Below, in pieces: positions 29,295 to 32,823 of a stretch of DNA of 64,000 nt. A program made the translations under genes and the position numbers. The stretch is from positions 312,155 through 376,154 of the forward strand of contig JADZAS010000016.1 in assembly GCA_020852515.1 (NCBI GenBank), given 5' to 3'. Numbering within the stretch: position 1 is the first letter of the stretch; the number at the start of each line of letters is the position of its first letter. Source of the stretch: Phycisphaerales bacterium. Lineage in GTDB: Bacteria > Planctomycetota > Phycisphaerae > Phycisphaerales > UBA5793. A model generated the notes under the pieces. That model was not told the DNA's origin. It worked only from the letters and a program-made list of their open reading frames with translations, and did no database searches.

Positions 29295-29366
29295 GCGGGT
29301 GTAGCTCAGTGGTAGAGCGTCACGTTGCCAACGTGAAAGTCGTGAGTTCGAATCTCATCACCCGCT
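29295..29366 (+). tRNA. tRNA-Gly (anticodon GCC)
   Basis: Complete cloverleaf: acceptor GCGGGTG pairs with CACCCGC; D arm with AGTGGTA loop; anticodon stem TCACG/CGTGA with loop TTGCCAA (GCC at 29327-29329); T arm with TTCGAAT loop; discriminator T. The 3' CCA is not encoded. GCC reads GGC and GGT, which dominate glycine codons in this GC-rich sequence. Confidence 0.97.
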
Positions 29367-31389: not shown

Positions 31390-31401
31390 GCGAACTGCCG
31401 C

Positions 31402-31429
31402 TTGACGGCCGCCGCCGCAAGGCTATCCT
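31402..31429 (+). promoter_or_regulatory. Putative promoter of the Met leader and metB-hom
   Basis: -35 TTGACG (31402-31407, 5 of 6), 16-bp spacer, -10 TATCCT (31424-31429, 4 of 6). The expected transcription start is at about 31436-31438, so the leader ORF may be read leaderless from the second ATG at 31438. Confidence 0.45.
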
Positions 31430-31431
31430 CG

Positions 31432-31536
31432 ATGCCGATGGTTGATCGCCTTCACATCGCGACGGACATGATGATGTCCATGCCCAGCCCGGGCGCGGGA
31501 TTCGAATCCTGCGGCTGGTTGGGCGTCGCTCGCTGA
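31432..31536 (+). CDS. Candidate Met-rich leader peptide upstream of metB
   Basis: A 34-codon ORF starting ATGCCGATG and ending TGA at 31534, with AAGG upstream. Met occurs at codons 1, 3, 13, 14, 15 and 17, and the cluster Met-Met-Met-Ser-Met lies just before a strong hairpin (31484-31518). A run of regulatory codons followed by competing hairpins in front of the matching biosynthetic genes is the layout of an attenuation leader peptide. metB-hom are methionine/homoserine-branch genes, so the match is apt. That the ORF is translated is inference from sequence. If transcription begins at about 31436, the first ATG is skipped and the peptide has 32 residues. Confidence 0.55.
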   Translation: MPMVDRLHIATDMMMSMPSPGAGFESCGWLGVAR

Positions 31537-31641
31537 TCGACCGTTCCCCACCACCGCAATGACTCGATTCCCCCGTCCGGGCCTGCACCGGACCGCGTTG
31601 TGCTTCTGCCTTCAGCACTCCCGAACAAGGGGAATCGAATC
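31464..31641 (+). promoter_or_regulatory. Attenuator-like structured leader of metB-hom
   Basis: Elements in order: hairpin GGACAT/ATGTCC (31464-31479) over the Met codons; hairpin CCAGCC/GGCTGG (31484-31518) enclosing the stem GCGGGA/TCCTGC; the sequestering strand 31561-31573; an inner hairpin GTCCGG/CCGGAC (31575-31593); and the metB ribosome-binding strand 31629-31641. Strand 31561-31573 pairs with 31629-31641 at 12 of 13 positions, burying AAGGGG next to the metB ATG. Segment 31497-31508 can pair with 31561-31572 at 10 of 12 positions, an alternative that would free the ribosome binding site. The pairings were made by eye; no folding energies were computed. Confidence 0.5.
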
Positions 31642-32823
31642 ATGTCTTACCGCTTTGACACGCTGGCGATCCACGCCGGCCAGCCCAACGACGCCCTCAC
31701 CGGCGCCGTCGTTACGCCCATCTACCAGACCACCACCTACGCCCAGCATGAACTTGGCGGACAGCCCGACTACTGCTACTCGCGCACGGGCAATCCCGGG
31801 CGCACGGCCCTCGAGTCCAGCCTGGCCGCACTCGAAGGCGCGCGATACGGGCTCGCGTTTGCGAGCGGGCTCGCGGCCGTCAACGCCCTGCTCCAGACCC
31901 TCAGCGCGGGCGATCATGTCGTCGCTTCGCAGGATCTCTACGGCGGGTGCTACCGCATCTTCACGAAGATCTTCTCGCGTTTCGGCGTCACCTTCTCGCT
32001 CATCGACACGACGGACGTGCGCAACGTCGAGCGGGCCATCACTGGCGCGACCCGGCTACTCTGGCTCGAAACACCGTCGAATCCGCTGCTGCGGATCACG
32101 GATATCCAGGCGTGCTGCGCCGTCGCGCGAGCGCGCGGCATCCGCAGCGTCGTGGACAACACGTTTGCCACGCCGGTGCATCAGCAGCCGCTGCAACTCG
32201 GGGCCGACATCGTCCTGCACTCGACGACCAAGTACATTGGCGGGCACTGCGATGTGCTCGGCGGAGCCCTGGTGACCAACGACGAAGAGACATTCGCCGA
32301 ATTGAAGTTCGTGCAGAATGCAACCGGCGCCGTTCCGGGGCCGCAGGAGTGCTTCCTGCTGCTGCGCGGCATCAAGACGCTCTCGCTGCGCGTGCGCCAG
32401 CACGCCGCCAATGCCCAGCGCATCGCCGAACATCTCGAAGCGCACCCAGAGGTGCGACGCGTGATCTATCCGGGGCTGGGCAGTCACCCGCAGCATGAAC
32501 TCGCGAAGCGCCAGGCGTCGGGCTTCGGCGCCGTCGTCAGCGTCGAATTCGAAGGCGGCATCGAGCGGGTGAGGTCGCTCATCGGCCAGTTGCGCCTCTG
32601 GCCGCTGGCCGAGAGCCTCGGCGGCGTGAAGTCGCTGCTGTGCCACCCCGCGACCATGACCCACGCCGCGGTCGAGCCGGCCGAGCGTCGTCGCATCGGA
32701 ATCGGCGACGGCCTCTTGCGCCTCTCGGTCGGCATCGAGGACGTGCACGACCTCATCGACGACCTCGATGCAGCGCTGGAGCAGTCGGCGCGGGCCGGGC
32801 GGGAAGAGCAGGTGTCGGCATGA
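31642..32823 (+). CDS. metB: Cystathionine gamma-synthase / gamma-lyase family enzyme
   Basis: 393 residues from ATG 31642. This PLP enzyme joins an activated homoserine with cysteine to cystathionine, or runs the reverse lyase reaction. The PLP lysine sits in HSTTKYIGGHCDVLGG; YSRTGNPGRTALE and VVDNTFATP are the other fold signatures. The fold family also includes MetC and MetZ, so the exact reaction is assigned by context: the next gene is hom, which overlaps by 4 bp. AAGGGG lies 10 bp upstream but is predicted to be buried in a leader structure, implying translational control. Confidence 0.9.
   Translation: MSYRFDTLAIHAGQPNDALTGAVVTPIYQTTTYAQHELGGQPDYCYSRTGNPGRTALESSLAALEGARYGLAFASGLAAVNALLQTLSAGDHVVASQDLYGGCYRIFTKIFSRFGVTFSLIDTTDVRNVERAITGATRLLWLETPSNPLLRITDIQACCAVARARGIRSVVDNTFATPVHQQPLQLGADIVLHSTTKYIGGHCDVLGGALVTNDEETFAELKFVQNATGAVPGPQECFLLLRGIKTLSLRVRQHAANAQRIAEHLEAHPEVRRVIYPGLGSHPQHELAKRQASGFGAVVSVEFEGGIERVRSLIGQLRLWPLAESLGGVKSLLCHPATMTHAAVEPAERRRIGIGDGLLRLSVGIEDVHDLIDDLDAALEQSARAGREEQVSA

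Follow-up and report, generated by a model that had tools for sequence, protein, structure and literature searches.

The control of methionine genes is known mainly to proceed through SAM riboswitches, repressors, and T-boxes, and to our knowledge control by Met codons in a leader peptide has hardly been described; methionine also doubles as the start amino acid of proteins. Attenuators of the classical kind are those of the trp, his, leu, thr, and ilv operons. The locus described here resembles them in having a leader ORF with codons for what the pathway makes, and mutually exclusive RNA pairings; the classical attenuators end in an intrinsic terminator, whereas here it is the ribosome-binding site that is hidden. 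This brings the proposed switch close to ermC, an antibiotic-inducible translational attenuator in which a hidden ribosome-binding site opens when a ribosome stalls in the leader ORF, except that the signal of ermC is a drug and the signal here would be charged Met-tRNA.

By analogy, the closest known system in its working is probably that of the leaderless polycysteine ORFs that act as attenuators in mycobacteria (Canestrari et al. 2020, as cited in PMC9031893 and PMC13236596). As those citing papers describe them, these are leaderless short ORFs in which the speed of the ribosome on regulatory codons sets the translation of a downstream biosynthetic gene, which is what we propose for our locus. 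At the level of such descriptions, the two differ in the amino acid (cysteine in Actinobacteria, methionine here) and in the explicit three-strand switch with covariation that we describe. In Streptomyces lividans, a metL leader has been predicted 5' of metNIQ (PMC8079986). It is a leaderless, Met-containing leader peptide ahead of a methionine gene, as the one here would be, but its sequence (MSTTSDRTPATEATTTPGARCMCRRMCAF) contains few and scattered Met, it precedes a transporter operon, its switch is not resolved, and it has no visible similarity to the leader studied here. This prediction was the only Met leader peptide that we found in the open-access literature, in itself weak evidence of novelty, and the literature searched described no such attenuator for the phylum. 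The design of the attenuator is known; its methionine version appears to be undescribed.

The leader lies in a window of 64,000 nucleotides from a Phycisphaerales bacterium, directly 5' of a gene that we call metB. On the basis of modelled folds and of their conservation, we consider it probable that it is a ribosome-mediated translational attenuator that senses the methionine supply and controls metB together with the coupled hom. The features of the locus, in window coordinates, are the following:

31402..31429, + strand: predicted promoter, TTGACG, 16-nt spacer, TATCCT
31438..31536, + strand: leader peptide ORF of 32 codons, peptide MVDRLHIATDMMMSMPSPGAGFESCGWLGVAR
31468..31482, + strand: putative regulatory Met codons, MMMSM, codons 11-15 of the leader ORF
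31482..31524, + strand: leader hairpin H1, 31482-31489 paired with 31517-31524 and 31494-31501 with 31506-31513, a minimum free energy (MFE) structure
31486..31509, + strand: strand A, the anti-sequestering strand, within the leader ORF; pairs with strand B
31561..31584, + strand: strand B, the alternative partner of A and of C; six genomes have the same 3' part, CGTCCGGGCCT
31575..31593, + strand: small hairpin GUCCGG/CCGGAC inside the B:C domain, with an interrupted U-rich stretch after it
31629..31643, + strand: strand C, the Shine-Dalgarno GGGGA and the first two bases of the metB start codon; pairs with 31559-31573
31642..32823, + strand: metB, cystathionine gamma-synthase-like protein of the PLP-dependent methionine-biosynthesis family, 393 aa
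32820..34112, + strand: hom, homoserine dehydrogenase (NF004976, 321 bits, cut-off 205), overlapping the end of metB

The best NCBIfam model for the metB product is NF005871 (cystathionine gamma-synthase), whose score of 505.8 bits falls slightly under the cut-off of 513, so that the exact activity is not fixed within the PLP family and we class the protein, from its sequence, as cystathionine gamma-synthase-like at the level of that family. The presence of hom 3' of metB is common to the genome of the window and its first relatives (L001-L006), and the 5' neighbour gene is not. Elsewhere in the window, a tRNA gene (29295-29366, Rfam 75 bits) stands just 5' of a gene for a ClC-type chloride channel.

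The leader was compared across 11 genomes, and in all of them the promoter spacer has exactly 16 nt and the distance from the -10 box to the ATG is 8-11 nt. Given the position of the promoter, transcription would start at the ATG at 31438 or within 1-2 nt before it, and the ORF is therefore probably read from a leaderless mRNA. Its frame, its Met cluster, and the PSPGAG-type block that follows are kept in the 11 genomes, where indels come in multiples of three and the stop codon moves within 6 nt. Each leader has three to five Met codons clustered 5' of strand A. Those placed 9 and 3 nt 5' of the CCC (or TCC) of the PSPGAG-type block are invariant, and the one placed 15 nt 5' of it is present in 10 of the 11. 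One relative (L003) carries CTG where the cluster would have its first Met, which makes a start of the ORF inside the cluster unlikely and indicates that these codons belong to an ORF starting upstream, at 31438.

These traits bear on the reading of the leader as a metabolite riboswitch for SAM, methionine, or SAH, with an expression platform that hides the ribosome-binding site and an ORF that is incidental. The strong nucleotide conservation and the stability of H1 just 5' of a methionine gene would suit a riboswitch, but the conservation of the frame, the frame-keeping indels, the stop, and the Met cluster would then have no reason, and we regard this explanation as very improbable. A search of the leader against Rfam 15, at gathering and at permissive thresholds, gave no match to a SAM or SAH riboswitch or to a T-box; the only families that it returned were microRNAs, dismissed as chance matches.

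At the RNA level, the core of the locus is a helix over the ribosome-binding site of metB. The initial annotation had proposed that 31561-31573 (GACTCGATTCCCC) pairs with 31629-31641 (GGGGAATCGAATC) at 12 of 13 positions, and this is what we find. It had the helix run from AAGGGG up to the ATG; the two A (31627-31628) lie outside, and pairing extends into the start codon, 31559-31560 with 31642-31643. This B:C helix is the predicted minimum structure, a point on which the annotation could have failed: it is the MFE of 31556-31645 at -38 kcal/mol (shuffled sequences -24.3 +/- 3.2, z -4.3), it persists when the whole leader (31392-31660) is folded to its MFE (z -4.1), and its duplex was equalled by two of 2000 shuffles. 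A competing match, 10 of 12 positions between 31497-31508 and 31561-31572, had also been noticed; it exists and makes up half of the match between strands A and B (31486-31509 with 31561-31584), which comprises about 20 pairs, with a duplex of -34.8 kcal/mol that none of 2000 shuffles attained. The A:B complementarity exceeds chance in all six genomes in which it was tested (0-21 of 2000 shuffles did as well). Because A:B and B:C use the same strand, strand B has two mutually exclusive partners. Strand A in turn has an alternative, since it can fold locally into H1. Among nine sequences 94% of the cells of this hairpin are paired, and it is mostly invariant, with weak covariation, so that covariation says little about it. 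The switch first sketched was thus incomplete, its competing segment being longer than was thought, H1 taking part, and the leader ORF being longer and probably leaderless; the idea of one strand with two exclusive partners, chosen by the position of the ribosome on the Met codons, gains support from the predicted minimum structures and from the compensatory changes presented below.

The small hairpin nested in the B:C domain raises the question of whether the leader acts on transcription. Under transcriptional attenuation, this hairpin (31575-31593) or the B:C domain would terminate transcription before metB, A:B would be the antiterminator, and the helix over the ribosome-binding site would be secondary. 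A:B does disrupt the small hairpin too, and discontinuous U-rich stretches follow the hairpin in several genomes (GUUGUGCUUUU here, UGUUUCUUU in L006, UGUUUU in L099). Yet a terminator scan of the window returned none, there is no continuous T-run, and the relatives share no consistent hairpin with a T-run. L006, L097, and L098 have lost or remodelled the local hairpin, whereas most genomes preserve complementarity to the ribosome-binding site through rewritten sequence. We therefore hold this explanation to be unlikely, and the view that the leader controls the start of translation, and is no classic terminator, is supported. It is possible that hairpin and U-rich stretch (31575-31610, in several genomes) form a weak terminator, in which case transcription termination may be a layer added to the translational control.

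Since B and C have been rewritten between lineages, the counting of covarying columns is unsuitable, and strands were instead exchanged between genomes, using seven separate lineages and all 5040 permutations. The native combinations were on average better than the swapped ones: 1) for B:C, the mean energy was -16.7 kcal/mol in native and -11.9 in swapped pairs, with 12 of 5040 permutations as good; 2) for A:B, -38.5 against -33.9, with six permutations as good; and 3) for the variable halves of A and B, -16.3 against -11.9, with a single one. Compensatory change, whose absence would have refuted the initial annotation, is extensive in the relatives, and A:B is both kept and specific. The B:C helix is rewritten yet kept in 10 of the 11 genomes and is weak in the remaining one (L098), examples of rewritten B/C strands being CUCUGACUCCC/GGGAGUCAGAG (L006), GGCUCCUUCG/CGAAGGAGCC (L100), and GAACGGCUCC/GGAGUCGUUC (L096). 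In the core of A:B, one pair is G-U, G-C, or A-U depending on the genome. Part of the conservation of A:B could be due to that of the peptide-coding sequence.

This overlap of peptide and RNA also matters for the reading of the leader as an arrest peptide, in which the nascent chain would stall the ribosome in response to methionine or SAM and not to starvation for Met-tRNA. The MPSPGAG block is conserved at the level of amino acids, beyond the Met codons, and puts a Pro-containing motif directly after the Met cluster. However, strand A encodes PSPGAG, so that constraint on the RNA explains the block, and its residues vary (SSPGTG, PGPDGG, PSPDAG) together with the RNA sequence, which makes an arrest peptide very improbable.

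How the position of a ribosome would set the balance between A:B and B:C was modelled in the 11 genomes by folding the RNA 3' of the ribosome front edge at every position of that edge. Edges of +2, +3, and +4 correspond to a first free base at 31485, 31486, and 31487, and an edge of +3 is expected when the A site holds the invariant Met codon (31474-31476), provided that the ribosome extends about 12 nt from the first base of that codon. With Turner parameters, A:B beats B:C in 8, 10, and 10 of the 11 genomes at these three edges, in 4 of 11 at +9, and in none at +36 or beyond. The parameters of Andronescu 2007 give A:B as the winner at +3 in 7 of 11, the genome of the window not being one of them, and temperatures from 20 to 45 C had little effect on the outcome in six genomes. 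In two genomes (L004, L005) A:B wins nowhere except in a narrow zone around +3, and in L100 it never does. The ground state predicted with no ribosome varies by genome, being A:B in five and B:C in six. What the scan shows robustly is that A:B disappears as soon as the ribosome covers A or has moved beyond it, and that A starts just 3' of the Met codons.

From these folds we propose the following sequence of events on the probably leaderless transcript. With ample methionine, ribosomes would cross the Met cluster and strand A, leaving A covered or refolded into H1; with A unavailable, B:C would form and hide the ribosome-binding site and the start codon of metB. With charged Met-tRNA scarce, the ribosome would pause at the Met codons. 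When the ribosome has the codon at 31474 in its A site, the front edge would stand just before 31486, blocking the foot of H1 and leaving all of A free to capture B, such that C would be released and metB translated. Methionine starvation would then induce metB. The leader ORF and its Met codons, the two exclusive pairings with their compensated conservation, and the place of the conserved Met codon next to strand A come from sequence and computation; the leaderless start, the stall on Met codons, and both the sign and the size of the regulation are what we infer. A point against the attenuator is that the same starvation should also lower initiation with fMet-tRNA. If the proposal is true, methionine supply is sensed through Met-tRNA in a previously undescribed manner, and this compact, covariation-backed case from the Planctomycetes allows a direct test of whether a ribosome that lacks Met-tRNA on a leaderless mRNA can switch a methionine gene on. 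Covariation by strand swaps can reveal such attenuators in uncultured groups.

The leader is present in five members of the genus (the genome of the window and four others, MetB 87-94% identical) and in G032, from another family of the same order (MetB 77% identical). A covariance model built from these first six leaders (R1), which contains no metB information, was searched in 400 genomes of the order and found five further leaders, in G706, G750, G612, G455, and G662 (E 2.6e-13 to 7.9e-6), each directly 5' of a MetB ortholog (67-76% identical). Their peptides are, in this order, MHVFDQSMSMSMPSPGAGAVPASGWAVA, MKLRTANLMSLMAMTMPSPGAGPRSCVWAGGWRS, MAHASFNSMDMLMSMPSPDAGRAPVVRLGDSAC, MSLRFANLMDMPMSMSSPGTGVNLRVRLGRSG, and MRRTRTITQAMPMAMPGPDGGFPDGGRAVSAR, all of them Met-rich. 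Named members include Phycisphaerales bacterium UBA5793, Planctomycetota KLAP200, and planctomycete PLA5. In one family of 163 genomes, MetB of at least 72% identity occurs in only three (the next reaches 58%); the strong leader matches of the family come from exactly these three. The leader tracks a MetB subtype, which fits a unit of leader and subtype that is patchy across three families of the order and that may possibly have been transferred horizontally. We think it probable that this is a methionine-codon, leaderless-peptide translational attenuator of the Phycisphaerales, in which strand A imitates the ribosome-binding strand and vies with it for the strand that masks it, and which moves as one unit with the MetB subtype.

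The leader was found only in the order of the window's genome. A plain 18-nt pattern with two mismatches gave only noise across the phylum, and its one exact match, L036, was rejected as it shows no Met leader. A degenerate pattern of the Met cluster, run on 85,000 named genomes and on viral contigs, returned members of the genus and otherwise unrelated matches without such a leader. Weak matches to a model R2 (L103-L106, L110-L115, L118, L120-L122) were rejected as they have no MetB nearby. Another locus (L119, in G609) carries a divergent Met leader, MHMVMRSPVAG, 5' of a MetB 60% identical, with no clear B or C strand; as these strands could not be made out, it was left out of the count of 11 genomes. 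The genome of the window has a second MetB-like gene (G000:C21:164562-165734, L082), 51% identical and without a Met leader, and relatives have similar second copies (L081, L083-L086). Finally, the contig WYBR01000130.1 (L075) is labelled Vicinamibacteraceae (Acidobacteriota), yet its genome, G003, groups in the planctomycete genus of the window, and the assembly is probably misnamed.
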